This document shows positions 507 through 25,250 of a stretch of 64,000 nt of DNA, piece by piece. The notes under the pieces were generated by a model. That model saw only the letters and a list, made by a program, of their open reading frames with translations, did no database searches and had not been told where the DNA came from. Made by a program: the position numbers and the translations under genes. Numbering within the stretch: position 1 is the first letter of the stretch; each line of letters starts with the position of its first letter. The DNA is from Clostridia bacterium (lineage in GTDB: Bacteria > Bacillota > Clostridia > Lachnospirales > Anaerotignaceae). The stretch lies in NCBI GenBank assembly GCA_022651385.1, contig JALCQR010000012.1, forward strand, positions 1-64,000, written 5' to 3'.

Positions 507-686
507 ATGGATTTTTTGACGACGAAGCAAGCTGCAAAATTGTGGGGGATCTCTCCCCGGCGTGTAGCATTGCTTTGCTCACAGGGACGTATTACCGGTG
601 TCATGAAGGCCGGTAAGACTTGGCTACTGCCCCCTGATGCTCAGAAGCCTGCCGACCCGCGCTTTGAAAGTAGAGAAGATAAATAG
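507..686 (+). CDS. Small helix-turn-helix protein heading the defence operon
   Basis: This is a 59-residue basic protein. The ATG at 507 has GAGGTG six bases upstream; an in-frame ATG at 420 lacks a site and is not used here. Residues about 5-45 (TTKQAAKLWGIS, then RVALLCSQGRI and AGKTWLLP) match the MerR/excisionase-type winged helix seen in many small helix-turn-helix domain proteins that lead restriction or defence operons. It probably binds DNA near its own promoter and tunes expression, but activator, repressor or excisionase roles cannot be told apart from sequence. It lies 49 bases upstream of the cytosine methyltransferase in the same orientation, which suits a controller protein. Confidence 0.75.
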   Translation: MDFLTTKQAAKLWGISPRRVALLCSQGRITGVMKAGKTWLLPPDAQKPADPRFESREDK

Positions 687-735
687 GAAAAAACGAGCAC
701 TCAGAAATAATAACACAGAACAACGAGGAATCTAT

Positions 736-2022
736 ATGCCTTTGAATAACATACAGTCAAATTACAATTTCATTGATCTTTTCGCAGGCGCAGGAGGTCT
801 GTCTGAAGGCTTTTTGCAGGCAGGGTTTAACCCTGTTGCCCATGTTGAAATGAATGAGTTTGCCGCAAAGACGCTCGAAACAAGAAGCGCTTACTACTAT
901 TTAAAAAGCACTAATAACCTTGGTTTATATAAGAAATACTTAAGCGGCAAAATCACACGCGATGAATTTGTGAAGCAGATTCCTGCTTCTATCACAAAGA
1001 CCGTAATCAATGAAACCATGTCCGATGATACTTTACCCGCTGTCTTCAAAACCATTGACGGAATAATGAAGATCAGGGGCATTTCAAAGGTTGATGTCAT
1101 CGTTGGTGGTCCTCCATGCCAGGCATACTCTCTTGTTGGCAGAGCACAGAGCAGCCACATGGAAGTTCCTATGGCTGAGGATCCGCGGAATTATCTGTAC
1201 AAACTTTATGCAAGATTCCTGAAGCGCTATCAGCCACGCATGTTTGTGTTTGAAAATGTCATCGGTATTGAATCGGCAAACGGCGGTACTACATGGAAGA
1301 ACATCCAGAAGTATCTGAAGCGCGTCGGATACGAAATAGAATGCCATGAGCAAAATGCGCAGACCTTCGGTGTCCTTCAGAACAGACGCCGCATAATTAT
1401 CGTCGGATGGCTGAAAAAAAGCGGATTGAAATATCCGGATTTTCTGAAAATCAAATCTGATGCCGTTGTCAATGACCTTTTCACCGATTTGCCAAAGCTG
1501 CATCCGGGCGAGAGTTCTGACAAATATGCCCGGACAAAGACAAGCCGTTATGTCCTCGAGTCAGGCATCAGAACTGCAGATGATATTCTGACGCTCCACA
1601 TCTGCCGCCCCAACAAGGAGCGCGATATAGAAATTTATCGGAGAGCCGTTGAATTATGGAATGACGGTCACAAACGTCTGAATTACAATGATCTTCCGGA
1701 AGAACTGAAGACTCATAAGAACAGGCATTCCTTCACAGACAGGTTCAAAGTGGTTGAAGGTGATGAGAAGTGCTGCCATACGATACTTGCACACTTGTCA
1801 AAGGATGGGCATTACTTTATTCATCCGGATATTGAACAACACCGCTCCATCACGGTGAGAGAAGCCGCAAGAATACAGTCTTTCCCCGACAGTTACTTTT
1901 TTGAGGGGCCCAGAACATCGCAGTTTATTCAGATTGGCAACGCTGTCCCTCCGCTGATGGCGAAGGGAATCGCCATGGGCATTTTTGAGCAGTTGCACAA
2001 AGGTGATTGCAATGGAAGGTAA
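736..2022 (+). CDS. DNA (cytosine-5-)-methyltransferase, DrmMII-like
   Basis: This 428-residue enzyme transfers a methyl group from S-adenosylmethionine to C5 of cytosine. The diagnostic motifs are in order: FAGAGG (about 16-21, cofactor loop), GGPPCQ with catalytic Cys128, ENV (173-175), QNRRR (215-219), the REAARIQSFPDSY block (375-387) and GNAVPP (401-406). An insertion-like segment of about 70 residues sits between motif I and the PPC loop. The start at 736 is chosen because CGAGGAA precedes it and the fold begins ten residues later. The end overlaps the next gene by 11 bases. In class 2 DISARM a 5-cytosine methylase (DrmMII) marks self DNA; here it stands next to class 1 components. Its target site cannot be read from sequence. 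Confidence 0.9.
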   Translation: MPLNNIQSNYNFIDLFAGAGGLSEGFLQAGFNPVAHVEMNEFAAKTLETRSAYYYLKSTNNLGLYKKYLSGKITRDEFVKQIPASITKTVINETMSDDTLPAVFKTIDGIMKIRGISKVDVIVGGPPCQAYSLVGRAQSSHMEVPMAEDPRNYLYKLYARFLKRYQPRMFVFENVIGIESANGGTTWKNIQKYLKRVGYEIECHEQNAQTFGVLQNRRRIIIVGWLKKSGLKYPDFLKIKSDAVVNDLFTDLPKLHPGESSDKYARTKTSRYVLESGIRTADDILTLHICRPNKERDIEIYRRAVELWNDGHKRLNYNDLPEELKTHKNRHSFTDRFKVVEGDEKCCHTILAHLSKDGHYFIHPDIEQHRSITVREAARIQSFPDSYFFEGPRTSQFIQIGNAVPPLMAKGIAMGIFEQLHKGDCNGR

Positions 2023-4630
2023 CCTGCTCCTCGAGCAATTCAGCAGATATAAAAAAATAGAGCTTGAGGACTCACCGTTTCATTTCCTGCTTGATGCCAA
2101 CATAGAACGGAACCCTCATCAGGTCAATGCTTTCTGTGCAGCTATCCAAGCTCTGAAAACTGGAGGAATTGTCCTTGCGGACGAAGTAGGACTTGGCAAA
2201 ACAATCGAGGCCGGTCTTGTGCTGAAATACGTGCTTGATTCAGGAGCAAAACGTGTTTTGATCGCTCTTCCCGCTTCCCTCCGGAAACAGTGGGAACTTG
2301 AACTTGAAGAGAAATTCGGACTGGAATCAACGATTCTCGACAGAATCATCGTCGAAAAGGATTCCTCCGGCTGGCGCGACAGATTCAATGACAGGAAAAA
2401 GGCGCAGATCATTCTGACATCGTATGACTATGCTTCCAAGTTGATGAAGAGATTTCCGGATGTAAAGTGGGACTTCATAATCATTGATGAGGCTCACAAT
2501 CTCAGAAATGTATTTCACGGGACAAAACGGGCAAAGAACCTGTACGACCTTTCCAAGGGTATTCCAAAGATTCTGCTGACTGCAACGCCTTTGCAGAATT
2601 CACTGACAGATCTTCACGGACTGATTTCTTTTATAGATCCCAGAATTTTCGGCAGTGAAAAGGTGTTCAACAAGCGCTATGTCGAAGGACAGAATTACGC
2701 GGATTTAAAGCTGGAATTATCCCCGGTGCTTTACCGCACACTTCGCAAAGATGTGACGAAGTACATGAATTTCAAGAAGAGAACCTGTAAAACAGTTGAT
2801 TTTACGCTTTCCCACGATGAAATGGAGTTGTATCAGAGAGTCAATGACTTTTTGAAACGGGATATCCTGTATTCCATTCCCATGTCAAACCGGGGGCTTA
2901 TTATCCTTGTTATCCGCAAACTCCTTGCCTCCTCCAGTTTCGCTCTGATAGAGACATTTGAAATTTTGAAGAAGAGGCTTCAGAAGCTCTGTGATGGAAG
3001 CAAGTCGGCAAACGCCCAGGAAGGCTTTGATTTGTTCTGGAGCTTTGTTGAGGATGAAATTGACGAGTCAGGTTTTGAAGAAACCGAGGATGAAGATACG
3101 GTTATTCAGAAACAGCAGATACAGGCGGAGCTCAATGAAGTGAACCTGATCATCGGTGTTGCAAAGCGCATTAAGACGAACGCCAAAATCGAGGCACTGA
3201 AAACTGCAATACATATAGCCTTCGATCACCAGCAGGAACAGGGTATTTCGCAAAAGGTTGTTATTTTCACCGAATCCAAGCGTACCCAGAAATACATTGC
3301 CGCAGAGCTTCGGAAAACAGGATATGAAGATGAGGACATTCTTCTCTTCAACGGGGATTTTGACGATACCATGACAAAGGAAATATACAGGACATGGCAG
3401 GTCAAGAACTTCGGAAAGACCAATTACGGCCGGAGTGTTGAGTACAAACACGCAATCGTGGATTACTTCCAGTACAACGCCAAGATTCTGATATGCACTG
3501 ATGCAGGTTCCGAAGGCCTGAACCTGCAGTTCTGCAACACGGTGATAAACTACGACCTGCCGTGGAACCCGCAGAAAATCGAGCAAAGAATCGGCCGCTG
3601 CCACCGTTACGGACAGCAACATGATGTAGTGGCCATAAACCTGCTGAATACGCAGAATGCCGCTGACCAGCGGGTTTACGACATACTGTCAAAGAAGTTT
3701 GAACTGTTTGAGGGCGTGTTCGGAGCCTCGGACATAGCTCTCGGAGTCTTGGAATCAGGGACAAACTTCGAAAAAATGGTGCTGCAGATTTACCAGACCT
3801 GCGATACCACTGCGGAATTCAAGAAAGCATTTGACAAACTGGACCGGAGGCTCGACGCCAGGATGGACAAAAAAGCCAGGGAACTGCGCTCTCTGTTTCT
3901 TACCGAGAGCAGCGGAGCCAAGGAACAGGCACTGGATAAAACAAAGGCTGATATAGCCCGGTATCTGCAGGAAGTTGAATTTTGGAACGGCTTTGACGAG
4001 CCGGAATTGGACGGGAAGCAATACTACTGGAAAATCGACAACTGGGGCAATGATGTCATGGGTTCGCATGGTGTTTTGTTTATAGGAGCATTCTGCAACG
4101 GAGCAAAACTCCTGTTTCCTGTGCTGCTACTCTGCGACGAACATGGGGACTATGTCGATTTCACTGAGAATGAAATGGTTCAAGCGTTAGGAAGCGCAAA
4201 TGATTCCAATATCCGTTATTTTGCTCCCTCTGATGAGGAAGTTCGCCGATATCAGAAGATATATGACCAGCTTACTGAAGAAATGACCATCCGGTACCGC
4301 CAGAGCGTGGAGCCGCAGATGGCCTATAATAAACGCAAGGTGGAAAACTGGGTTGAAATACAGACGGAACAGCTGAATATCCAGATTGAGGATATGTCGG
4401 CTGAAATTGATGAACTGATGACCCGGGCTGCAGAGGCTGTGGATTTCCTTGAAAAAGTGGATATCCGGAAAGAAGCGGATGAAAAGCGGAAACACCTGCA
4501 GAAATTCCAGCAGACATTTCACAAGAAGGTCTCCGCCATTCAGGAAGATGGACGGCGGGAAATCGGAACATTTAACAAGCAGTTCGATATTAACCCTATA
4601 CTGCTGGTTAATATTGTCCTGAAATTTTAG
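2012..4630 (+). CDS. drmD: SNF2-family helicase, DrmD-like
   Basis: This 872-residue superfamily 2 ATPase has Walker A DEVGLGKT at 57-64, DEAH at 159-162, TATP at 190-193, and helicase C motifs GSEGLNLQF (about 497) and QRIGRCHRYGQ (about 524-534). The C-terminal third (about 750-860) is charged and probably coiled coil. The architecture fits RapA/SNF2-like DNA translocases, and DrmD of class 1 DISARM is such a protein. The start ATG at 2012 has AAGGTGAT upstream and overlaps the methyltransferase stop by 11 bases, implying translational coupling. It probably translocates on double-stranded DNA as part of the defence complex. The name rests on family and neighbourhood, not on a search. Confidence 0.8.
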   Translation: MEGNLLLEQFSRYKKIELEDSPFHFLLDANIERNPHQVNAFCAAIQALKTGGIVLADEVGLGKTIEAGLVLKYVLDSGAKRVLIALPASLRKQWELELEEKFGLESTILDRIIVEKDSSGWRDRFNDRKKAQIILTSYDYASKLMKRFPDVKWDFIIIDEAHNLRNVFHGTKRAKNLYDLSKGIPKILLTATPLQNSLTDLHGLISFIDPRIFGSEKVFNKRYVEGQNYADLKLELSPVLYRTLRKDVTKYMNFKKRTCKTVDFTLSHDEMELYQRVNDFLKRDILYSIPMSNRGLIILVIRKLLASSSFALIETFEILKKRLQKLCDGSKSANAQEGFDLFWSFVEDEIDESGFEETEDEDTVIQKQQIQAELNEVNLIIGVAKRIKTNAKIEALKTAIHIAFDHQQEQGISQKVVIFTESKRTQKYIAAELRKTGYEDEDILLFNGDFDDTMTKEIYRTWQVKNFGKTNYGRSVEYKHAIVDYFQYNAKILICTDAGSEGLNLQFCNTVINYDLPWNPQKIEQRIGRCHRYGQQHDVVAINLLNTQNAADQRVYDILSKKFELFEGVFGASDIALGVLESGTNFEKMVLQIYQTCDTTAEFKKAFDKLDRRLDARMDKKARELRSLFLTESSGAKEQALDKTKADIARYLQEVEFWNGFDEPELDGKQYYWKIDNWGNDVMGSHGVLFIGAFCNGAKLLFPVLLLCDEHGDYVDFTENEMVQALGSANDSNIRYFAPSDEEVRRYQKIYDQLTEEMTIRYRQSVEPQMAYNKRKVENWVEIQTEQLNIQIEDMSAEIDELMTRAAEAVDFLEKVDIRKEADEKRKHLQKFQQTFHKKVSAIQEDGRREIGTFNKQFDINPILLVNIVLKF

Positions 4631-4642
4631 GAGAAATCTAAT

Positions 4643-6163
4643 ATGAAGAAAACGGGAAGATTAGAGCTGACCTGGGTTGGCAAGTATGATGAAAAAATTA
4701 TCGAGCCGAGGATTCTACTGGAGGACAAAAGCAAGTCCTACGGAGATCCTACAAGCAAAAACATGCTAATTCACGGGGATAATCTCATTGCCCTAAAGGC
4801 ACTGCAACAGGATTTTTCAGGGAGAATCAAGTGTATATATATTGATCCGCCTTATAACACGGGCAGTGCCTTTGAACAATATGATGACGGGCTGGAACAT
4901 TCCATATGGTTGTCGATGATCAGAGATAGGCTTGTTGTTTTAAAAGAGCTTCTTTCCAATGAGGGAACTATATGGATAAGTATTGATGATAACGAAGAAG
5001 CATATTTAAAAGTTCTCTGCGATGAAATTTTTGGTAGAGAAAACTTTATTAACACAGTTATCTGGCAAAAAATTCATAGCTTAAAAAATGATGCTCGTTA
5101 CTTATCTGAGAATCATGATTTCATTCTCGTATATGCAAAAGACAAGGAATCTGTCCAATTTAATTTATTAGGCCGAACAGAAAGCATGAATTCTCGATAT
5201 AAAAATCCTGATAATGATATAAGAGGGCCATGGCAATCAGGTGACTTAGTTGCAAGCGAAGAACGTACTAATGGGCATTTTATTGTTACATCGCCTATTA
5301 CAGGGAAGGCTTTCGATGTCCCAAGTGGAAAACATTGGGTTTATTCAGAAGAAAACCTGAGAATCATGGTTTCTGAAGGAAGAGTTTGGTTTGGAAAGAA
5401 TGGTGATGCCTTTCCCAGAAAAAAAAGGTATTTATCCGAAGTAATGCGAGGCCGCAAAGGAAGTACTATTTGGCTCAGCGAAGAAGTGGGTCATAACCAA
5501 GAAGCAAAAAGAGAGAGCATAAAACTTTTCGGCAAAGAATCTTCTTTTGCTACTCCTAAACCCGAACGATTAATCGCACAAATATTAACATTGGGAAGCA
5601 ATGAAAACGATATAATATTAGATTCTTTTCTTGGCTCAGGAACAACCATAGCAGTCGCGCAAAAAATGAATCGTCGATGGATAGGTATAGAAATGGGCGA
5701 ACAATGTTATACCCATTGCAAATCACGAATGGATATGGTTGTGGACGGAGAGCAAGGTGGAATAAGTACGTCATATAATTGGCAAGGTGGCGGCGGTTAC
5801 CATTTCTATGAACTTGCTCCGAGCCTGCTCGTGAAAAACGACAAGCTGCCGGTTTACCAGATAAACCCGTCCTACACCTTTGAAATGCTCTGCGAGGCCA
5901 TCTGCAAGATTGAGGGATTCAAATATAAGCCGGAGGATGTCTTCCATGGGTACTCCTCTGAAAAAAGGTTTATCCACATAACGAAGGAATTCGTAAATGC
6001 CGGATATGTCAAATCGCTGTCGGCCAGACTTGCCAATGGTCAGTCCCTCCTGATATACGGCACGAAGATCCAGTCGGACATGATTCTGCCCGATAACATT
6101 GAGGTAAAGAAAATACCGAAAGACCTTCTGGAAAAGTGCGATTTTGAAAGCGAGGCAGAATAG
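4643..6163 (+). CDS. Type III-like adenine-N6 DNA methyltransferase (Mod / DrmMI candidate)
   Basis: This 506-residue beta-class amino-methyltransferase has catalytic motif DPPYNTG at 68-74, ahead of the cofactor motif DSFLGSGTT near 327-335. That order is typical of type III Mod subunits. AGGAGAAAT precedes the ATG at 4643. The last 110 residues resemble the C-terminal domain of Mod proteins that contacts Res. The middle of the gene (roughly 5000-5780), which holds the target recognition domain, is much more AT-rich than both ends, suggesting exchange of the specificity segment. The next gene is a Res-like protein starting directly after this stop, so the two may form a Mod-Res pair. The enzyme could also serve as the DISARM class 1 methylase DrmMI. 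Confidence 0.85.
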   Translation: MKKTGRLELTWVGKYDEKIIEPRILLEDKSKSYGDPTSKNMLIHGDNLIALKALQQDFSGRIKCIYIDPPYNTGSAFEQYDDGLEHSIWLSMIRDRLVVLKELLSNEGTIWISIDDNEEAYLKVLCDEIFGRENFINTVIWQKIHSLKNDARYLSENHDFILVYAKDKESVQFNLLGRTESMNSRYKNPDNDIRGPWQSGDLVASEERTNGHFIVTSPITGKAFDVPSGKHWVYSEENLRIMVSEGRVWFGKNGDAFPRKKRYLSEVMRGRKGSTIWLSEEVGHNQEAKRESIKLFGKESSFATPKPERLIAQILTLGSNENDIILDSFLGSGTTIAVAQKMNRRWIGIEMGEQCYTHCKSRMDMVVDGEQGGISTSYNWQGGGGYHFYELAPSLLVKNDKLPVYQINPSYTFEMLCEAICKIEGFKYKPEDVFHGYSSEKRFIHITKEFVNAGYVKSLSARLANGQSLLIYGTKIQSDMILPDNIEVKKIPKDLLEKCDFESEAE

Positions 6164-8806
6164 ATGTCAGACATAGTGAAAAAAATCAAGTACGCGATGA
6201 GTCTGAGGACCCCGCAGGAGGAAGCGCTTTCCTGCCTCGACGCCATCAGCTCACATTGTGATTACAAGAAAGACAGCAAGGAGACCATCGAGAAAGCCGC
6301 GACGGAATACTGTGAAAAGCAGCGCAGGATTCAATCGGAATTTAACTTTCCGTCTTTCTGTTATGCCATGGCCACTGGCATAGGGAAAACACGTCTTATG
6401 GGAGCGTGCATTTATTACCTGTACAAGACAAAGGGATATAAGCATTTCTTTATCCTCGCCCCAGGCAGTACGATTTATGACAAGTTTCGCATGGAATCCA
6501 ATCCGAATCATCCGAAGTATATCTTCAAGGGGCTTGAATCGGAAATGGGAAGACCCAAGGTTTATGACGGCGAGAATTACGATACATATCCCGTGAAATT
6601 CGAGCAGATGACGCTGCGTGTTGAAAAGGCCTCCGAGATACAACTCTTCATTTTTAATATCGGAAAGATATTCAACAGTAAGACGGATGTGCAGTTCAAT
6701 TTCCACAAGTTTAAGGAAACGCTCGGCACTTCCTTTGCGGATGTGCTGGCGCAGTTTGATGACCTTGTGATATGCATGGACGAGGCTCACCGCTACTATG
6801 CCCCCGCTTCCATGAAAGCCATCAATTATCTGAAGCCGGTGCTCGGGCTTGAATTCACCGCCACGCCAAAGTCAACCTCCAATGTCATATACGCTTATGA
6901 TCTTGCAAGAGGCGCTGTCGAAGGATACCTCAAGATTCCTGTCGTTATGGGCCGCTCAAACATGGCGGGCTACAGCCAGAATGATATTGAGGAAATGAAG
7001 ATTCGTGATGGCCTTACCCTTCATGAACACCGAAAGACCGTCTTGAAACAATATTGCAGCGACAACGGACTGGATTATGTGAAACCTATTGTACTGATTG
7101 CCTGTAAGGACACCGACCATGCCAAGAAAATCCGTGCCCTCATAGACAGTGACGATTTTCAGAATGGTAAATACAAGGGTAAGGTAATAGAAATTCACTC
7201 CAAGCAGACCGGTGAGGAGTCAGATGAGAACATTCGTCTCCTGCTCTCCATAGAAAGCAACGCTAACCCAGTGGAGATTGTTCTGCACGTATATAAGCTG
7301 AAGGAAGGCTGGGATGTCAACAATCTGTTCACCATCATCCCGCTGAATGCCGCAAAGAGTGATATTCTGGCAATGCAGACAATAGGCCGCGGCCTGAGAC
7401 TTCCGTTTGGAGAACAGACGGGCAACGAAGACCTCGACACGCTCGATATTGTGGCACACGACCACTACAGGGAACTGGTTGATGAAATCAAAAGCAGTGA
7501 TATCTTCCGTTACCGTGACCTTGATAAGACAGCTGTCGAGCCGACAGAGTCAGTGGATGTTTCCAGTTCCGTTGACGACGGACAGCTTACTCTGTTTGAC
7601 GTTGCCATGACCGCATCTGGCGTAAAGACTTTTGCTGAAGTGAGCACTACAAAGACGCAGCTTGAAATCTATCAGGAATATGTCAAAACATTCATGGCTT
7701 CCCAGCGCAAAACAAAGACGGAAAACGATAATCAGATGTCGATATCCGACTTCATTCCCGGCGTGAAACCAGATAATACGCCAACAGAAGATACCGCCCT
7801 TTCACAGCCGCAGACTTCCCTGAAATCAGGTAAGCAGCCTTTGAGCAAAGAGGAATTTGTGAAGGCTGTGAAAGAATATTCCGCCAAGGCAATCTCTGTC
7901 CCCAAGATTCTCGTGCAAACGACCTCGGAGGTGAAATTCAACCGTTTTGAAGTAAAACGCACAATACCCGACTTTGAAGTGGCAATGGCAAAGATCGAGC
8001 GTTTCGACGCCATCAACCAGCAGCTTCTGACAGCTGTCGACGCCCAGATACTTGAGGTCAACGATTCGCTGAACACGCTCGCCTGTATGCTGCTGGATTC
8101 AATCAGCGAACTGTCTTATGACGACGCCGACTTCGTTATTGATGTAGTGGAACAATATCTCAGCCAGATTCCGGGTGATGAGGAGGACAAGCGCAGAATC
8201 GTCCGCCGCTATGCCACTCTGATTGTCTCTGACATCCGCCAGCAGATTTATGAGCATATGGACAAAACGACGCAGGACATCCACATTATTCAGAAGGATC
8301 TGATTCTGTTCCGCAAGTTTGTAAAAAATGTCAAGGAGGATGGCAAAGTAAGATTCGACAAGCCATTCACCGACAAGAGCAATATCAAGCAATATCTGTT
8401 TACAGGCTATAAGAAGTCCTATTATCCTTCGAACGCCTTTGACAGCGACACGGAAAGGTTGTTCTCCATCATTCTGGAGGAAGACCCGGATGTCATACGC
8501 TGGATAAAGCCTCCGCTGAACCAGCTCGGTCTGTTTTGGAAGGCAGGTCAGCAGTATAACCCGGATTTTCTGGTGGAGACTTTCTCCGGTAAATTCATGG
8601 TCGAGGTCAAGGCCTTAAACGAGGTGAATTCAGAAGAGGTTGTCTCAAAAGCCAAGGAAGGAATCAAATGGTGCCGGTTTGCATCAACAGCCGACCCTGA
8701 CCATAAAAAATGGGAGTACAAGCTTATATCGGATGATAATATACATCCCGGGAACACCTGCAAGTATACGCTTGGTACCGCCCACGCAGTAAAGGAGGAA
8801 TCATAA
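6164..8806 (+). CDS. Type III restriction Res-like DEAD/DEAH helicase with PD-(D/E)XK nuclease
   Basis: This 880-residue protein combines a superfamily 2 motor and a C-terminal nuclease. Visible are Walker A ATGIGKT (70-76), DEAH (206-209), FTATP (about 230), the IGRGLRLP motif VI (about 407) and, near 800-816, NPDFLVE followed by MVEVKA. The last pair fits the PD-(D/E)XK catalytic core that cuts DNA in type III Res subunits. The start codon follows the methyltransferase stop with no gap, and the stop overlaps the drmA start by one base, so it is expressed with both. Residues about 510-570 are rich in Ser, Thr, Pro and Gln and look like a flexible linker. Whether it cuts unmodified DNA as a Mod-Res enzyme or acts within DISARM is open. 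Confidence 0.85.
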   Translation: MSDIVKKIKYAMSLRTPQEEALSCLDAISSHCDYKKDSKETIEKAATEYCEKQRRIQSEFNFPSFCYAMATGIGKTRLMGACIYYLYKTKGYKHFFILAPGSTIYDKFRMESNPNHPKYIFKGLESEMGRPKVYDGENYDTYPVKFEQMTLRVEKASEIQLFIFNIGKIFNSKTDVQFNFHKFKETLGTSFADVLAQFDDLVICMDEAHRYYAPASMKAINYLKPVLGLEFTATPKSTSNVIYAYDLARGAVEGYLKIPVVMGRSNMAGYSQNDIEEMKIRDGLTLHEHRKTVLKQYCSDNGLDYVKPIVLIACKDTDHAKKIRALIDSDDFQNGKYKGKVIEIHSKQTGEESDENIRLLLSIESNANPVEIVLHVYKLKEGWDVNNLFTIIPLNAAKSDILAMQTIGRGLRLPFGEQTGNEDLDTLDIVAHDHYRELVDEIKSSDIFRYRDLDKTAVEPTESVDVSSSVDDGQLTLFDVAMTASGVKTFAEVSTTKTQLEIYQEYVKTFMASQRKTKTENDNQMSISDFIPGVKPDNTPTEDTALSQPQTSLKSGKQPLSKEEFVKAVKEYSAKAISVPKILVQTTSEVKFNRFEVKRTIPDFEVAMAKIERFDAINQQLLTAVDAQILEVNDSLNTLACMLLDSISELSYDDADFVIDVVEQYLSQIPGDEEDKRRIVRRYATLIVSDIRQQIYEHMDKTTQDIHIIQKDLILFRKFVKNVKEDGKVRFDKPFTDKSNIKQYLFTGYKKSYYPSNAFDSDTERLFSIILEEDPDVIRWIKPPLNQLGLFWKAGQQYNPDFLVETFSGKFMVEVKALNEVNSEEVVSKAKEGIKWCRFASTADPDHKKWEYKLISDDNIHPGNTCKYTLGTAHAVKEES

Positions 8807-11800
8807 TGGCTGACAGATTCAAATATTCAGAAGTCAGGCAGAAAATCATAGATGCCATAAGAACCGATCTCATCGGACCCCAGTCTGAAAATGAAGTTCT
8901 GGATGAGAATCCCAGGTATGCGTATCTTGTCGGCATGCTTGATTCACAGAATAAAGATAATAATTCATCCAGCGCTGGCGAGCAGGAAGTCGATACAGAT
9001 ATCGCTTACGAGGATGGTGAGGATTTTACTGCCGGTGAAGACGATGATAATGAACCGGTTTCCACAACTCATTTCCAGCTACCCTCCTCAATCGGAATCA
9101 GTTTCTATATACAGAGCGATACAAAAAGCATTAATCTGGATATAAGCTGGGGAGACTATGCAAAGTCATCCGAAAAGTACACTGGTAAGGACGGGAAGGA
9201 ACACAGCCGCGCAGTTTACACCCGACAGCCAATGAATGAAACACTGCGTGTCAATTTCAGCGAATTTACGCGCACAAAGGATTACCAGCTTGTCTGCGAT
9301 TCAAATGTCCATGTCCATGTTTCCCGCATTTCTCTGAAAGGCGGCTATTCTCTCGTAACGGCTTATGTCATTAACAAAAGAAGCAATCCGGCAAACAGTG
9401 CGGAAGCAATCATGTTCCAAGTAGGAATCAAGGCATATTCGGAAGACGGTTCAGCTGCTTTTATTGCAGAACATATCTGCAGGAAAATACTTACTGCAGA
9501 TGAGTTCTATTTTGAGCAGCGACCTATTATGGGACGCGGACGCGGTTGTGCGGCGGTATGGGAAGACCCTGCTGATGGCAGAACCACATATGTAAAATCC
9601 GATTTTATCCCGGAATATGAATTTCCCGGAGTCAGTGCCGCACTTGATGGTTTTGACAAATTGTACTTTTCCACTTGCCTGATGTCCGTGAAATCGAAAA
9701 AAAGCGAGACCATCGGAAAACTTAACACGCTCGCAGACTCTTATGAGAACTGGATAGACAAGAAATTAACTGGGAACGCAAAAATGAATGATGCCGGTTT
9801 CAGCGATAAAATCGGTAACAAGGTTATATCTAGGTGCAGGGACGCATTGAGGCGAATCCGTGAAGGAATGCATATCATTGAATCGGACGATATCTCATTC
9901 GAAGCCTTTTGTTTCATGAACCGTGTTATATTTCTTCAGAACAGCATCAAGAATTACTCCAAGAAGCACGGCGCGGGTATTGAATGCAATTTCCAGGACT
10001 TTATTGATCCGAGGAAACCTGAGAACGATTTCGGATGGCGTCCGTTCCAGATTGCTTTTATTCTTATGAACCTTGCAGGCATCGTTGATCCCAGACACCA
10101 CGACCGTGAAGTTGTGGACCTCCTCTATTTTCCAACAGGAGGCGGCAAAACCGAAGCCTATCTCGGCCTCATGGCGTTTGTCATCGCCAACAGACGGCTC
10201 CGTGCCGGCGAAGGCGATAAATATAACCTCGACGGAGGCGTGACCATTATTCTGAGGTACACGCTCCGTCTGCTGACCACACAGCAGAGAGATCGTATTA
10301 CAAAGATGGTGCTTGCCGCAGAAATGATACGCCGCCAGGCATATCCGATGTACGGCAGGGAACCTATCAGTATCGGCTTCTGGGTCGGAGATGGAGTTAC
10401 TCCGAATAAATTTGATGAATTCAATGAAAAGCCGGATAACCCTTACGCAGCAAGAAGCGCAAGGAATCACGTGTACAAGCAGCTTCTCACCTGCCCGTTC
10501 TGCGGAAATCCTCTCAAGGAAGACAACTTTTACATTGATCCGGACAGAAAGTCCATTGATATTTATTGTTCTGACCGGGACTGCAAATTTTACAAGTACA
10601 GAAATGACCGGATTCCGATTCCTGTGTATCTGGTGGATGAAGAAATATATTCCAAATGTCCAACCATCATTTTGTCTACTGTGGATAAATTTGCAAGACT
10701 GCCATGGGATGTCAGCACAAACGCCCTGTTTGGCCGCATTGACCGCAAATGCAGCCGCGACGGATATGTGGCTTACGGTGCAGCGCACAGTAAGCACAAC
10801 AGGACGGCATCAACACTGACGAATGTACGGCCGTTCCTTCCGCCGGAACTTATTATTCAGGACGAGCTCCATCTTATCACCGGCCCTCTTGGAACGGTGT
10901 ACGGTGCATATGAGACCATTATCGAAGATATGTGCACGCATGACGGGATAAAGCCGAAGTACGTGGTTTCGACAGCCACAATTAAAAATGCAGAGGCACA
11001 GACAAAGTGTCTTTATGCCAGGAGGAATACCACCCAGTTCCCGCCTAACGGATTTGAGATCGGTGACAGCTTCTTTATTAAGGAGATACCCGCTAAAGAT
11101 GATCCTTTCAGAAAATATGTGGGTGTCTGCGCTCCCGGTCAGTCAGTGAAAACAGCATTGTTAAGGGTATACGCAATTATCCTTCAGGCAGCATACACGT
11201 TCTCCCTGCAGGAAAAATATAAAGATGTGATTGACCCCTATTATTCCCTTGTCGGGTATTTCAACAGTATCCGTGAGCTTGGCGGTGCCGTGAGGCTTCT
11301 CCAGGACGATATTCCGAAGAGAATATACAGGATCAAGAACAAATATCATTTGGACAAGCAGCGTTATCTCAACCGCAACGTGGAAATAACATCACGCATG
11401 TCATCGTATAAAATCCCGGAGAAGCTCAATCAGCTTGAGACTACATACGAGTCAAGGGATTGTCTTGATACTGCCGTCGCCACAAACATGATTGCTGTCG
11501 GTATGGATGTTGATCGTCTGGGACTTATGGTCGTTACCGGTCAGCCTAAGCAGAATTCAGAATACATCCAGGCGACAAGCCGTATCGGTCGTGCTTTTCC
11601 CGGATTGGTGGTCACCCTGTACAACGCATACCGGCCGCGTGATTTGTCACATTACGAGAATTTTACAGGTTATCATTCCCAGATTTACAGATTCGTGGAG
11701 GGCACAACTGCGACTCCTTTCTCTGCCAGAGCAAGGGATCGTGTCATGCATGCCCTAGTAATCTCTGCAATACGGCTTAGCTATCCTGAAATGGCAGACA

Positions 11801-12117
11801 ATGCTGATGCGGCTGATATTGGATCGTTATCTGATGAACAGCTTGACTCGGTGAAAAAGCTGATCATCGACAGGCTGAATATCATTAAGCCGTCTGCCAA
11901 GGCAGATGCCGAAGAGGAAATAGACCGGTTTATCGACTGGTGGAAACTGCAGGCTGCACAGACAAAGCCGCTTCGTTACTATGTCGTGAAGACTGACAGG
12001 TACAGCAGGTTGATGAATCCCTATGAACTTCCGAGCAATGATAACGAGAAAGCTACTTTGCGTTCCATGCGTGAAGTTGAGAGTTCTGCAAATATGTTTT
12101 ATTACACGGAGGAATGA
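8806..12117 (+). CDS. drmA: DISARM DrmA-like helicase
   Basis: This large 1103-residue helicase-like protein has P-loop FPTGGGKTEAY near 442-452, a DELH box near 686, STATIK near 722 and, towards the C-terminus, ATSRIGRAFPG (about 923) in a conserved helicase C domain. Between the P-loop and DELH box lies a Cys cluster (CPFCG near 563, then CSDRDC about 25 residues on) that probably binds zinc. The N-terminal third is unlike a helicase and may be an accessory domain. This gene followed by DUF1998 and phospholipase D genes is the diagnostic DISARM core. In the known system DrmA and DrmB form a DNA-binding complex. The start overlaps the Res stop, and AAGGAGGAATCATA provides the ribosome binding site. 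Confidence 0.88.
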   Translation: MADRFKYSEVRQKIIDAIRTDLIGPQSENEVLDENPRYAYLVGMLDSQNKDNNSSSAGEQEVDTDIAYEDGEDFTAGEDDDNEPVSTTHFQLPSSIGISFYIQSDTKSINLDISWGDYAKSSEKYTGKDGKEHSRAVYTRQPMNETLRVNFSEFTRTKDYQLVCDSNVHVHVSRISLKGGYSLVTAYVINKRSNPANSAEAIMFQVGIKAYSEDGSAAFIAEHICRKILTADEFYFEQRPIMGRGRGCAAVWEDPADGRTTYVKSDFIPEYEFPGVSAALDGFDKLYFSTCLMSVKSKKSETIGKLNTLADSYENWIDKKLTGNAKMNDAGFSDKIGNKVISRCRDALRRIREGMHIIESDDISFEAFCFMNRVIFLQNSIKNYSKKHGAGIECNFQDFIDPRKPENDFGWRPFQIAFILMNLAGIVDPRHHDREVVDLLYFPTGGGKTEAYLGLMAFVIANRRLRAGEGDKYNLDGGVTIILRYTLRLLTTQQRDRITKMVLAAEMIRRQAYPMYGREPISIGFWVGDGVTPNKFDEFNEKPDNPYAARSARNHVYKQLLTCPFCGNPLKEDNFYIDPDRKSIDIYCSDRDCKFYKYRNDRIPIPVYLVDEEIYSKCPTIILSTVDKFARLPWDVSTNALFGRIDRKCSRDGYVAYGAAHSKHNRTASTLTNVRPFLPPELIIQDELHLITGPLGTVYGAYETIIEDMCTHDGIKPKYVVSTATIKNAEAQTKCLYARRNTTQFPPNGFEIGDSFFIKEIPAKDDPFRKYVGVCAPGQSVKTALLRVYAIILQAAYTFSLQEKYKDVIDPYYSLVGYFNSIRELGGAVRLLQDDIPKRIYRIKNKYHLDKQRYLNRNVEITSRMSSYKIPEKLNQLETTYESRDCLDTAVATNMIAVGMDVDRLGLMVVTGQPKQNSEYIQATSRIGRAFPGLVVTLYNAYRPRDLSHYENFTGYHSQIYRFVEGTTATPFSARARDRVMHALVISAIRLSYPEMADNADAADIGSLSDEQLDSVKKLIIDRLNIIKPSAKADAEEEIDRFIDWWKLQAAQTKPLRYYVVKTDRYSRLMNPYELPSNDNEKATLRSMREVESSANMFYYTEE

Positions 12118-12118
12118 A

Positions 12119-13870
12119 ATGACTGGATTTGATAATAACAAACTCGGCGAATTACGCCCGAATCAGATAATTACCACCTTCGGTCCTGGCTCGGTCGTGG
12201 ATGCCGTCAAGGACTCGGTAACCATACTGGATATATCCTACTGGAAACAAAAAGGAAAAAAGATTATTGACGGCAGGCTTGCTTCCTACCTTGGGGTAGA
12301 CTGCTTCTATATGCCACGTACAAGTTTCTCAGGTGATATACCTGTCGTGACATTCCCATACTGGCATGTTTGTTCCAATTTAAGATGCGGCAAACTATTT
12401 GACGCAAGAAAAAATTTTGACCTTGACAAGTATTTAAAATACGGTGTCACGTGCCCTGAATGCCACCGCCCCGCATATCCATCCCGTTTCATTATCATAT
12501 GTGAAAATGGGCACATGTCTGACTTTCCTTGGAAGTGGTGGGTTCACAGAGGCGATACCGACTGCAACGGTACATTAAAGATGTATTCGACAGGAAACAC
12601 ATCCACACTCGCTGATATGTGGGTCGAATGTTCATGCGGTGCAAAGCGAAGCATGAGCGGAGCAACACAGAGAGAGAATTTTGATGGCTTGACATGCCCC
12701 GGACATCATCCGTTCAGACCGAATGTGAAGAATCAGAGATGCGACAAGCCGATTATCCCGTCTCAGAGAGGTGCGTCGAATGTTTACTTCGCTGTGAGCA
12801 GAAGTGCCATATCGATTCCTCCGTGGATTAATCCACTTTATAACATGATTGATGAGCATCTAAGGGATATTGAGCTCGCAAAACAACTCATGGGGGACGA
12901 CGGTGTTACAAAGATATACGAGATGTATTTTGCCGCTTACACACGTGACGAATTCGACGAGGCTCTCGCCCGCCGCTTAAGCAATATAAAGGAGTTCACC
13001 GAAATCAAGCAGATGGAATACAACGCCATTACGCATCATAATGATCCGGCATATGAATCGAACAAGAAGCATTTCAAAGCTGAGGAAGACCCTCTGCCCG
13101 GATATTTGCAGAAATACTTCAGCAGGATTGTGCGCATCACCCGGCTTCGTGAAGTCAGGGTGCTACTCGGATTTACAAGAGTGGACGCTCCAGATCCAGA
13201 TGCCGATGAACAGGCAAATATCGTATATCTCAGCAAAGGAAGAACAGAACGCTGGCTTCCAGCTGCCGAAGTCAATGGTGAGGGAATCTTTATAGAGTTT
13301 AATAAGGATACCCTTGTCCAGTGGCTGAATTCAGATAAGGTAAAAGCACTCTCTCAGAAATATTCCGATTCATACAAAGAATTCTGCGAATCCAAGGGAT
13401 GGACGGTTACCGTACTTAGAAATGCAGTGTATGTGCTGATGCATACATTTGCTCACCTTATGATAAAGCAGATGTCCATGTCTTCAGGGTACTCCTCATC
13501 GGCGATCAGAGAAAGAATCTATTTCGGAGATAAAATGTCCGGCGTTCTCTTGTATACCGGGAGTTCTGATAAGGAAGGCTCATTAGGCGGTTTGGTTGAA
13601 CTTGGAAACATCGACCAGATGACCAGCCTGATGAGAGGTGCGTTCCAAGAAGCACTTGTATGCACTAACGACCCGGAGTGTATGAACAATCTTCCTGCAG
13701 GAAAAGACTCCAATGGTGCAGCGTGCCATTCCTGTTGCATGATTTCCGAAACTGCCTGTGAGAACGGGAACAGAATGCTTGACCGTGGTTTTGTCGTTCC
13801 TATCCCCGGTCGTGAAGAATGCGCATACTTTAAGGAATTGGTGAATGAACTATGTCAAGTGGAAATATAA
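12119..13870 (+). CDS. drmB: DISARM DrmB protein (DUF1998)
   Basis: This 583-residue protein starts at 12119 after CGGAGGA, one base past the drmA stop region. The N-terminal LRPNQIITTFGPGSVVD segment (about 12-30) is typical of DrmB. Several Cys pairs (CSNLRCG, CPECH, CENGH, CSCG) suggest zinc-binding knuckles in the first 200 residues. The C-terminal DUF1998 region has MHTFAHLMIKQM near 443 and a CHSCCM...ETACENGN...LDRG block near 536. No catalytic function is established for DUF1998; in DISARM it partners DrmA. It overlaps drmC by 19 bases. Confidence 0.88.
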   Translation: MTGFDNNKLGELRPNQIITTFGPGSVVDAVKDSVTILDISYWKQKGKKIIDGRLASYLGVDCFYMPRTSFSGDIPVVTFPYWHVCSNLRCGKLFDARKNFDLDKYLKYGVTCPECHRPAYPSRFIIICENGHMSDFPWKWWVHRGDTDCNGTLKMYSTGNTSTLADMWVECSCGAKRSMSGATQRENFDGLTCPGHHPFRPNVKNQRCDKPIIPSQRGASNVYFAVSRSAISIPPWINPLYNMIDEHLRDIELAKQLMGDDGVTKIYEMYFAAYTRDEFDEALARRLSNIKEFTEIKQMEYNAITHHNDPAYESNKKHFKAEEDPLPGYLQKYFSRIVRITRLREVRVLLGFTRVDAPDPDADEQANIVYLSKGRTERWLPAAEVNGEGIFIEFNKDTLVQWLNSDKVKALSQKYSDSYKEFCESKGWTVTVLRNAVYVLMHTFAHLMIKQMSMSSGYSSSAIRERIYFGDKMSGVLLYTGSSDKEGSLGGLVELGNIDQMTSLMRGAFQEALVCTNDPECMNNLPAGKDSNGAACHSCCMISETACENGNRMLDRGFVVPIPGREECAYFKELVNELCQVEI

Positions 13871-14511
13871 GCAGGGAAATACTGCTGAACACTATAAAGG
13901 GTGATGCCAATAACGGAACTTCAAATTCAATCACACTTTTGAAGAGAAGTTTTCCCGCATTGACAAATGAACAATGCAGTGATATCGCCGGACTCATAGC
14001 AAGTGCCATGAATACAAATGATACCGACAAAGTATCGCTTGTGGTTACCGCTCCACCGTCATTTGCAATAAAAGCGAGAACTACTATGAATGTCGTTCAG
14101 TCGATGATAAACAGTGCCAACAGGAATATCCTGATTACAGGATATTCCATGTCATCGTACTTTTCCGGCATTGTTGATACAATAATTCAGAAAAGCCAAA
14201 GCGGTGTTTTTATAAAGTTTTATGTAAACGATATAGAGAACCAGATAGGGTTTGACAAGATATTACGATATAAAGGTCATTTTCTGAAAATATACAACTA
14301 TCGTCAGTCCGAGGACCCCATGGCTGCCCTTCATGCCAAGGTGATATCCGTGGATCAGGAAAAAGCACTGATCACATCAGCAAATTTATCCTACCACGGT
14401 CAACAGGGGAATATAGAACTTGGTACTTTAGTCGAATCGAAAAACATAACGAAACAGATAGATGATGTTTTCACGAAGCTTATTTTTGCGAAAGTGTTTA
14501 ATGAGGTTTAA
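13852..14511 (+). CDS. drmC: DISARM DrmC, phospholipase D-fold protein
   Basis: This 219-residue protein carries one HKD motif, H161-A-K163-x4-D168, followed by TSANLS. It fits the single-motif phospholipase D/nuclease superfamily, whose members work as dimers. DrmC has this fold in both DISARM classes and is reported to be less essential than DrmA and DrmB. The start lies inside the drmB coding region with a 19-base overlap. Base composition falls compared with drmA and drmB. A hairpin follows the stop, then vsr. Confidence 0.85.
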   Translation: MSSGNISREILLNTIKGDANNGTSNSITLLKRSFPALTNEQCSDIAGLIASAMNTNDTDKVSLVVTAPPSFAIKARTTMNVVQSMINSANRNILITGYSMSSYFSGIVDTIIQKSQSGVFIKFYVNDIENQIGFDKILRYKGHFLKIYNYRQSEDPMAALHAKVISVDQEKALITSANLSYHGQQGNIELGTLVESKNITKQIDDVFTKLIFAKVFNEV

Positions 14512-14522
14512 CTGGTATATGT

Positions 14523-14547
14523 CAGCGATTCCTGTTTGCAATCGCTG
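14523..14547 (+). other. Hairpin between drmC and vsr
   Basis: CAGCGATT and AATCGCTG form a perfect 8-bp inverted repeat with a 9-base loop. No T run follows, so this is not a standard terminator. It may reduce or stabilise vsr-containing transcript ends. Confidence 0.5.
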
Positions 14548-14582
14548 AACAGCCATGCAAAAATTTTGAAGCGGGTGATCAT

Positions 14583-15014
14583 ATGCCGGATGTCATGACA
14601 AAAAAGCAACGAAGTTATAATATGTCACGTATCAGAGGTAAGAATACCAAGCCGGAGGAACTTATCAGGAAATATCTGTTTGCACAGGGATATAGATATA
14701 GAAAAAATGACAAGCGCTATCCCGGCAAGCCGGATATCGTACTGCCGAAATACCATACCATTGTCTTAGTACACGGATGTTTCTGGCATCAGCACCCCGG
14801 ATGCAAGGCTGCCCGGATTCCCGAAACAAACAGGGGGTTCTGGGCTGATAAGTTTGAAAAAAATGTCAGGCGTGACAAGGCTGAAAAACAGCAGCTTGAA
14901 GATATGGGCTGGCACGTAATTGTGGTATGGGAGTGTGAACTTTCAAACAAGGAGAAACGAGAGGAACGGCTTGCTGCTCTTGTGGAAGAAATCGAAGAAT
15001 GTCACAGATTTTGA
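14583..15014 (+). CDS. vsr: Very short patch repair (Vsr) endonuclease
   Basis: The 143-residue product matches Vsr throughout: MTKKQRSYNMSRIRGKNTKPE at the N-terminus, GKPDIVLP with Asp51 (metal ligand and catalytic residue in the family), FWHQHPGC (67-74) with conserved His and Cys, and a C-terminal VVWECEL. Vsr nicks 5' of T in T:G mismatches produced by deamination of 5-methylcytosine. Its usual partner is a cytosine-5 methyltransferase, and such an enzyme opens this gene row 12.5 kb upstream, so it probably limits C-to-T mutation at that target site. GGGTGAT precedes the ATG at 14583; an ATG four codons later is an alternative start. Confidence 0.9.
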   Translation: MPDVMTKKQRSYNMSRIRGKNTKPEELIRKYLFAQGYRYRKNDKRYPGKPDIVLPKYHTIVLVHGCFWHQHPGCKAARIPETNRGFWADKFEKNVRRDKAEKQQLEDMGWHVIVVWECELSNKEKREERLAALVEEIEECHRF

Positions 15015-23627: not shown

Positions 23628-25250
23628 ATGCAGGCAACAGTCAACGCCGGCGTTTATTGCCGGCTTTCCGTAGATGACCCCGATACAGACGAAAGCGAAA
23701 GCATCCAGACCCAGAAAGCAATGCTGACCGACTACTGCCACCAGCACGGATTTCATATCGTAGATTATTTTATTGACGACGGCGTGAGCGGAACTTCATT
23801 CGACCGCCCGGATTTCCGGCGAATGCTGGATGCCATCGAATCCGGAACCATCAATACCGTGATCTGCAAGGATCTGAGCCGTTTCGGCCGAAACTATTAT
23901 GAGTCCGGAATGTACCTGGATAATTACTTTATCCGTAAAAACATCCGGTTCATCGCACCGGGCAACTCGGTGGACAGCGCCAACGGAGCTTACAATCTGA
24001 GCGTTCCAATTTTGAACATGATGAACGACTTCTACGCCCGTGATATTTCCACCAAAACCAGGGATGCAAAAAAAGCCCGCGCCAAACAGGGGATGTATCT
24101 TGCCGCAAAGGCCCCTTACGGGTATGTCAAAGATCCGGCCGACCGGCATCACCTGATTGTGGACGAGGAAGCGGCGGTGATTGTCCGTCGCATTTTTGAC
24201 ATGGCGGCCCACGGAGCGGGCTATAACAGGATCGCCCGAACGCTCCACACCGCGGGCATTCCTAATCCGCTGACCTACTTCAACCAGAAAAATCCGGACT
24301 ATTATCACAGCGACTACTGGAAACAGGGTACGCAATGGCATGTGACGTCCATCCAGTCCATCCTGAACAATCCCGTCTATCTGGGCTGCGTCGCCCACAA
24401 CCGGGTGGGCAGCAAGGTCATGAACGGGAAAACGGAGAAAAAAGCCAGGGAGGATTGGATTGTGGTGGAACATACGCATGAGCCGCTGGTCAGCGCGGAG
24501 CAATGGGAAATTGTTCATAAACAGATGGAATCCAGACGCAGAGCGCAAAAGGATGGAGAGCCGCAGATGTTCGCGGGACTCCTCCACTGCTCAGACTGTG
24601 GCAGCGCCCTTTCCTTCTCGGCCGTTCATCGCAAGACAAAGCCGGACGGCGGACAGTACAAATGCTGGTATTACATGCGCCACGGCAAGGAATACTGTTC
24701 CAGCCACTACATCACCCTGGATCAGCTCAGTACCGTTGTTCTGGACGATATCCGCAGGCAGGCCCGGTATGCGTATTTTTACCATGGGCAGTATCTGAAA
24801 ACGCTCAAGGAGGCCAAAGCCGAGCAGAGCGTCAAGCAGCTTCAGAGCCGGAAAAAAGAGGCTGAGAAATGTAAAAAGCGCCTTGCGGCGCTGGACGGCA
24901 TCCTCAAGAAGCTGCTGGAACAGAACGCGGCGGGAGCCATCACAAACGAGCGCTTCGCCGCCCTGTCAGCCGATTACGAGCAGGAACACAAAGCACTGGA
25001 GGAAACGGTCGCGGACTATGAAAAAGCCGCACAGAGCGCCCGTGAAGGCGAGGAACAGGCGGAGCAGTTCGTGAAACTGATTCAAGAATACACAAATCTG
25101 ACTGCACTGGACGCCCGGATTCTTAATAAGCTGATCGACAAAATCGTCGTTCATCAGCGGGAGAAGGACGCAGAGGGCAATATCACCCAACTGGTGGAAA
25201 TTTATTATAAATTTGTAGGAATGACCGTACTTAATTTTAAGGAACAATAA
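23628..25250 (+). CDS. Large serine recombinase (TnpX-like integrase)
   Basis: This 540-residue site-specific recombinase has an N-terminal resolvase domain (about 5-150) with YCRLSVDD containing the catalytic Ser, then CKDLSRFGRNYYE and the conserved Arg residues. A recombinase domain (about 170-290) with APYGYVKDP is followed by a zinc ribbon near 325-365 (CSDCGSAL with a later Cys pair) and a long coiled coil (about 390-500) ending in DUF4368-like sequence. It cuts and joins DNA through a Ser-DNA link to integrate or excise circular elements. AAAGGAG precedes the ATG at 23628. It ends four bases before an interrupted phosphodiesterase frame, the usual place for an element-end integrase. 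Confidence 0.92.
   Translation: MQATVNAGVYCRLSVDDPDTDESESIQTQKAMLTDYCHQHGFHIVDYFIDDGVSGTSFDRPDFRRMLDAIESGTINTVICKDLSRFGRNYYESGMYLDNYFIRKNIRFIAPGNSVDSANGAYNLSVPILNMMNDFYARDISTKTRDAKKARAKQGMYLAAKAPYGYVKDPADRHHLIVDEEAAVIVRRIFDMAAHGAGYNRIARTLHTAGIPNPLTYFNQKNPDYYHSDYWKQGTQWHVTSIQSILNNPVYLGCVAHNRVGSKVMNGKTEKKAREDWIVVEHTHEPLVSAEQWEIVHKQMESRRRAQKDGEPQMFAGLLHCSDCGSALSFSAVHRKTKPDGGQYKCWYYMRHGKEYCSSHYITLDQLSTVVLDDIRRQARYAYFYHGQYLKTLKEAKAEQSVKQLQSRKKEAEKCKKRLAALDGILKKLLEQNAAGAITNERFAALSADYEQEHKALEETVADYEKAAQSAREGEEQAEQFVKLIQEYTNLTALDARILNKLIDKIVVHQREKDAEGNITQLVEIYYKFVGMTVLNFKEQ

Follow-up and report, generated by a model that had tools for sequence, protein, structure and literature searches.

Analysis of the window, a 64,000-nucleotide stretch that opens at the start of a contig from a 2.6-Mb Clostridia bacterium genome, revealed a tRNA-Ala gene that precedes, on the same strand, the nine genes listed in Table 1. 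The original prediction had described nine co-directional genes with small gaps or overlaps at positions 507–15014; all nine open reading frames were found intact on the plus strand, and the genes are genuine. From drmMII to drmC, neighboring genes either overlap or lie no more than 12 bp apart, with looser junctions between the HTH gene and drmMII (49 bp) and between drmC and vsr (71 bp). Start sites were improved using homologue alignments, by which those of DrmMII, DrmD, and DrmB were moved to 736, 2012, and 12119, respectively.

Table 1. Genes of the operon region and the swapped segment of Mod; enzymatic activities are those inferred from protein families.
Feature	Position	Strand	Basis and remarks
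HTH_17/excisionase-like small DNA-binding protein	507..686	+	Pfam HTH_17 28.4 bits (cut-off 27); optional
DrmMII, C5-cytosine DNA methyltransferase	736..2022	+	PADLOC DrmMII PDLC02649 570 bits; longest ORF from 637, homologues from 736
DrmD_b, SNF2-type helicase/translocase	2012..4630	+	NF038318 DISARM_DrmD_b 1467 bits (cut-off 950); PADLOC DrmD 1503; longest ORF from TTG 1985
Mod, type III R-M N6-adenine methyltransferase and specificity subunit	4643..6163	+	PADLOC MTase_III 558 bits; Pfam N6_N4_Mtase
Swapped centre of Mod (residues ~150–315), probable target recognition domain	5090..5587	+	Low identity across relatives; pairwise swaps
Res, type III R-M subunit, a helicase ending in a PD-(D/E)XK nuclease	6164..8806	+	PADLOC REase_III 408 bits; top solved match EcoP15I Res (RadD tied)
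DrmA (short form), YprA-family helicase	8806..12117	+	NF038325 DrmAS 1262 bits (cut-off 950)
DrmB, DUF1998/MZB zinc-binding partner of DrmA	12119..13870	+	NF038324 590 bits (cut-off 240); longest ORF from 12023
DrmC, phospholipase D-type nuclease (HAK motif)	13852..14511	+	PADLOC DrmC 319 bits; NCBIfam DrmC_I 119 bits, below cut-off 133
Vsr, short-patch repair nicking endonuclease	14583..15014	+	TIGR00632 146 bits (cut-off 97.85); optional

Scans of the operon for promoters and terminators returned nothing usable. An exact 123-nt tandem duplication occupies positions 1–246 at the contig start and runs into the tRNA-Ala(CGC) gene (201–276); it looks like an assembly-end artefact. A copy of the tRNA-Ala 3′ end, sought downstream as an attachment site, was found nowhere else in the genome. 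About 8.6 kb 3′ of vsr, a large serine recombinase and, after it, tRNA-Gly and tRNA-Arg genes (23628–25250) represent a possible mobile-element edge.

Profile scores supported the predicted DISARM core, namely the adjacent DrmA helicase, DUF1998 protein DrmB, and PLD protein DrmC, together with DrmMII as the DNA methyltransferase (DrmMI and/or DrmMII) by which a DISARM operon is recognized. Across relatives, Res, Mod, DrmMII, DrmD, and DrmA retain their catalytic motifs; the PCQ and ENV motifs of DrmMII are invariant in 66 aligned rows, and the HAK motif of DrmC is kept in 43 of 43. The SNF2 helicase proved to be a DrmD-type protein, as anticipated. It passes the cut-off for the distinct DrmD_b family and scored just 257 bits on the class 1 model DISARM_DrmD (cut-off 610); its assignment to the proposed class 1 form was thus not supported. 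Operon DrmB matches the solved DrmB 7s9v_B (E 3e-90), and DrmA aligns with Serratia DrmA (7s9v) from Serratia residue 136 onward (E 2e-171), its first ~135 residues having no counterpart in the window protein. In class 1 DrmA, an EVE-like N-terminal domain lies ahead of the trigger loop, according to a YprA-family study (PMC12458937), and, judging by the alignment, this region is probably missing here. A conserved acidic loop (residues ~47–88) is located at the position of the Serratia trigger loop, and V1091, a valine in all 57 ungapped rows, aligns with Serratia V1296, which Bravo et al. proposed as a methylation sensor.

The Mod–Res pair that had been placed between drmD and drmA is indeed present, as established by type III profiles and by the homology of both adjacent subunits to those of EcoP15I. 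The Mod relatives of solved structure are the type III Mods 6k0w and EcoP15I (4zcf_A), and its motifs follow the order DPPY, variable region (TRD), and FLGSGTT, the arrangement of type III Mods. The same gene had also been counted as the class 1 methylase DrmMI, an identity that was ruled out: MTase_III matches, DrmMI is absent from the best 25 models listed, and the models listed for the other operon genes do not include it either. Res carries the helicase motifs ATGIGKT, DEAH, and GRGLR and the PD-(D/E)XK motif PDFL-X10-EVK, and its Walker, DEAH, and PD-(D/E)XK residues are kept in 48–50 of 50 rows. In the predicted structure of Res (mean pLDDT 78, pTM 0.49), domain placement is uncertain; the best match among solved structures was EcoP15I Res (Foldseek E 1e-13; VIA-align Z 23.5 over 391 residues, spanning the helicase part only), with which RadD tied (Z 22.8). 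With Res, DrmC, and Vsr, the locus would encode up to three nucleases, as proposed.

As published for PADLOC, class 1 DISARM requires DrmA, B, C, D, and MI and prohibits DrmE, while class 2 is defined by DrmA, B, C, E, and MII (PMC9252829). The adenine methylase of the operon is MTase_III and not the DrmMI required for class 1, and no operon protein matched DrmE, the class 2 requirement, among the families listed; the operon thus fits neither class, and the published rules, with five core genes per class, would report neither. It shares with class 1 the order of drmABC, an upstream SNF2 helicase, and, as in the class 1 loci L114 and L111, an adenine methylase between drmD and drmA, exactly where Mod–Res is located in the window; the trigger-loop-like acidic loop and sensor valine of the Serratia class 1 system are likewise kept. 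It differs from class 1 in its type III Mod and Res in place of DrmMI, its DrmD_b, and its DrmA, which is shorter by ~220 residues and is without the N-terminal region. With class 2 (drmE, drmMII, drmABC), it has DrmMII and the DrmABC core in common, and the C5 methylase of an L. plantarum plasmid is 44% identical to the window DrmMII, whereas DrmD_b replaces DrmE and Mod–Res is added. In the DrmA tree, which has long branches and gives no class assignment, the window group forms a separate, fully supported clade.

The original prediction further emphasized two methylation marks. Genes for a C5 and an adenine methylase are both present, but two marks are not new for DISARM since the Serratia system studied by cryo-EM combines a C5 with an N6A methylase (PMC9142583). 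Databases have also met the operon proteins, as the close matches to NF038318 and PADLOC PDLC02619 reveal; the components are therefore known and modelled. Among the full texts that could be read, we found no published description or name for a DISARM system with a built-in Mod–Res pair, and a prior description is possible; the YprA-family study, in its accessible part, mentions many uncharacterised DISARM-like classes and does not describe the Mod–Res operon (PMC12458937).

To survey related loci, one genome per species and four viral contigs were scanned with a DrmD alignment, and up to 80 loci were annotated gene by gene; the counts include identical or near-identical copies and thus represent loci, not independent events. 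Among the loci listed, 49 of 59 DrmA-bearing relatives (variant A) hold Mod–Res between drmD and drmA in the order DrmMII-DrmD-Mod-Res-DrmA-DrmB-DrmC, with median gaps from DrmMII to DrmC of -3.5, 11, -1, -1, -16, and -19 bp, Mod/Res and Res/DrmA each standing at -1; one member (L096) has no drmMII. The hosts comprise Lachnospiraceae, Oscillospiraceae, Clostridiaceae, Butyricicoccaceae, Erysipelotrichaceae, Selenomonadaceae, Bifidobacteriaceae, and Treponemataceae, the identical gene order being found in Bacillota, Actinomycetota, and Spirochaetota. Positions in the DrmD tree, such as that of the Treponema operon inside Lachnospiraceae, suggest horizontal transfer. This order, which recurs in dozens of species, is a conserved operon and not a mixture of class 1 and class 2 genes special to this locus, as had been thought. 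The original prediction was to fall if the order were a standard and already named DISARM subtype; half of this holds, since the order turned out to be standard and a name for the arrangement was not found in the texts that could be read. Res was also sought in viral contigs, and none was found.

In variant B, which comprises 8 of the 59 loci listed, a Mod of ~700 aa and a Res of ~950 aa, an unrelated pair, are located upstream of drmMII. In the DrmD tree, the eight operons group in a single supported clade that lies inside variant A, so that Mod–Res was exchanged rather than lost, and the simplest history is a single exchange of the resident pair for an unrelated one elsewhere in the operon. 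Altogether, 57 of the 59 loci listed carry a pair, either the resident or the exchanged one. The sole clear loss among them is that of Bifidobacterium indicum (L058), where the 686-bp drmD–drmA gap holds, at 12930–13268, a nuclease-domain fragment matching Res residues 751–870 (tblastn E 4.5e-15), and the rest of the genome gave no Mod match; this species apparently retains DISARM without Mod–Res. In L079, the drmD–drmA interval also holds no pair, and the locus is cut by contig ends.

Several relatives displayed individual departures. L048 (1185–8465) and likewise L067 carry, directly upstream of the operon, a second, divergent DrmA–DrmB pair (34% and 31% identical) and a GajB-like UvrD helicase, making two DISARM-like systems in tandem. 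An OLD/AAA_15 ATPase (PtuA/AriA-like) is inserted between drmD and mod in L061 (12634–14406) and L064 (12623–14608). In Lacrimispora defluvii (L104, 16889–22587), drmA is shortened to 492 aa, and the place of drmB and drmC behind it is taken by genes of 533, 616, and 233 aa that gave no match. The operon of an uncultured Treponema (L039) is 98% identical in Res and 93% in DrmD to a Lachnospiraceae operon (L032) and just 78% in DrmMII; here, apparently, only the cytosine methylase was replaced.

Vsr and the HTH protein, which had been counted as parts of a nine-gene system, are optional extras. Vsr adjoins the operon at differing places in the window, L021/L082, L030, L056, L066, L075, and L090/L116, and a Vsr match is absent from 31 of 50 operon-bearing genomes; just 8 of 67 relatives have an HTH gene upstream. 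Both were accordingly ruled out as fixed operon parts.

Comparison of Mod with 49 relatives revealed that residues 176–300 have a mean identity of only 11–24% to the window protein, against ~60–80% in the N- and C-terminal flanks, and a variable centre was likewise found in the Mod of variant B. No comparable block is swapped in Res or DrmMII, Res displaying only a poorly conserved linker at residues ~500–560. Of the 15 operon pairs whose Res proteins share 95% identity or more, 73% fall below 35% identity in the Mod domain. For instance, the two Ruminococcus flavefaciens operons L048 and L067 are identical in DrmMII (100%), 99% in DrmD, and 98% in Res, with a Mod domain of 20% identity, and L068 and L069 share Res at 98% and the domain at 22%. 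The converse is found in the distant operons L043 and L091, which share a Mod domain (85%) with Res at 60%. On these alignments, the central segment, which probably recognizes the target, is swapped inside the DISARM operon while the cytosine methylase stays constant. Simple repeats that could support phase variation were sought in the window mod, and no repeat tract was found.

The hallmark of type III R-M is one-strand 6mA at an asymmetric site together with ATP-dependent cutting of two unmethylated sites. The window pair resembles EcoP15I (Mod2Res1) in its adjacent mod and res genes, in the motif order of Mod and the variability of the recognition domain at its centre, and in the helicase fold and PD-(D/E)XK motif of Res, and differs in being embedded in a DISARM operon and in the length of Res (880 aa versus 970 in EcoP15I). 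SNF2–Mod–Res loci without DrmABC are L023, L026, L027, L107, L119, and the plasmids L109 and L110. The closest relatives of DrmD_b outside DISARM are the SNF2 helicases followed by Mod and Res in such loci (L023, L107, L119, and the two plasmids); they scored 640–720 bits on DrmD_b and 266–302 on class 1 DrmD, and their loci also lack DrmMII and have Res proteins just 32–37% identical to that of the window. The operon can therefore be seen as an SNF2–Mod–Res unit joined to a DrmMII–DrmABC core. In L109 (Salmonella IncFIB plasmid) and L110 (Deinococcus plasmid), an Abi or AIPR gene lies between the helicase and Mod–Res; the L109-type helicase is found on at least 15 Salmonella plasmid records, neighboring genes having been read in L109 and L110. 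A different, accidental arrangement is that of Cutibacterium acnes, in which a type III R-M element is inserted into drmMI and breaks it.

Since the combination recurs in dozens of species with only its recognition segment swapped, the operon, a predicted anti-phage system of gut bacteria, looks like one working machine, and we consider the best explanation, with a probability of about 60%, to be a DISARM subtype in which the type III R-M enzyme is an integral part. A need of the operon for a type III pair is suggested above all by the exchange in variant B, which, as a single event, is not proof. More tentatively, and with somewhat less than even confidence, the operon may constitute a third type of DISARM, in which type III restriction and DISARM form one machine and either Res cutting or Mod-marked DNA feeds DrmAB and DrmD.

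In the working that we propose, DrmMII and Mod would methylate host DNA, placing 5mC at a fixed motif and 6mA at a motif set by the exchangeable Mod domain, and Mod2Res would recognize unmethylated Mod sites in incoming DNA and cut there, as EcoP15I does. DrmD, as an SNF2 motor, and DrmAB would load on unmarked or broken DNA and unwind it, the DrmAB helicase firing on unmethylated, 5′-ended single strands; DrmC would then degrade the unwound DNA, and Vsr, where present, would repair T:G mismatches arising from deaminated 5mC. We infer the coupling of Res cutting to Drm processing in this scheme, and several observations count against an integral enzyme, among them the absence from the window DrmA of the first ~135 residues of Serratia DrmA. 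The loci without DrmABC reveal that Mod–Res and a helicase can work without the DISARM proteins, and Bifidobacterium indicum apparently keeps DISARM without the pair. Moreover, type III enzymes leave overhangs of only 2–3 nt, while Serratia DrmAB prefers 5′ overhangs, so that the ends made by Res may by themselves be poor DrmAB substrates; exposing longer strands may require translocation by DrmD or Res.

The chief rival, which we regard as rather unlikely, holds that DISARM and an ordinary type III R-M system share one promoter and transcript and travel together while each works alone. In its favour, SNF2–Mod–Res loci without DrmABC exist, stand-alone type III mod genes are known to swap recognition domains, and in L043, L044, and L062 the Res part (~85% identical) and the DrmA part (~70%) differ in history. 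However, Mod–Res is located inside the operon at median gaps of -1 bp and not at its edge, hardly any of the loci listed is without a pair, and a piece of Res persists even where the pair was clearly lost. In a Res-anchored search of samples of 398 genomes (phylum) and 392 genomes (order), close homologues were found only beside DrmA: every Res at least 50% identical (window, G418, and G801, small numbers) adjoins DrmA, and those at 32–38% identity lie elsewhere.

A still less probable alternative is that Mod stands in for DrmMI, both in position and in marking self DNA for DrmAB, with Res a passenger or regulator and not an effector. The position of the class 1 adenine methylase in L114 and L111 is compatible with such a takeover, as is the retained valine proposed to sense methylation in DrmA, but conservation of the Res catalytic residues in nearly all rows speaks against it, and the pair that replaced Mod–Res in variant B also brought a Res; loss of Res, which this alternative predicts, was seen once. 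Chance neighbors in a defence island or misnamed helicases can practically be dismissed: although the gene calls rest on annotation-named profiles, the scores are far above curated cut-offs, and the survey refutes this explanation with the same order in three phyla.

The rule by which DISARM tells self from non-self and its sequence-independent action are unsettled, and the operon, which is widespread and nearly always pairs DISARM with a sequence-specific type III enzyme, makes a link testable, namely that DrmAB is triggered by restriction cuts or by unmarked sites. Natural experiments are offered by the operons of Ruminococcus flavefaciens MA2007 and 007c, near-identical and differing only in the Mod domain, by those of Clostridium manihotivorum and Clostridium sp. 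LS, near-identical except for that domain, by the variant B clade with its exchanged Mod–Res, and by Bifidobacterium indicum, where the pair was lost. If the operon is one machine, the swap of one Mod–Res pair for an unrelated one would show that it needs some type III enzyme, and exchange of a single Mod domain would re-target the operon as a whole, in its self-mark as well as in its attack.
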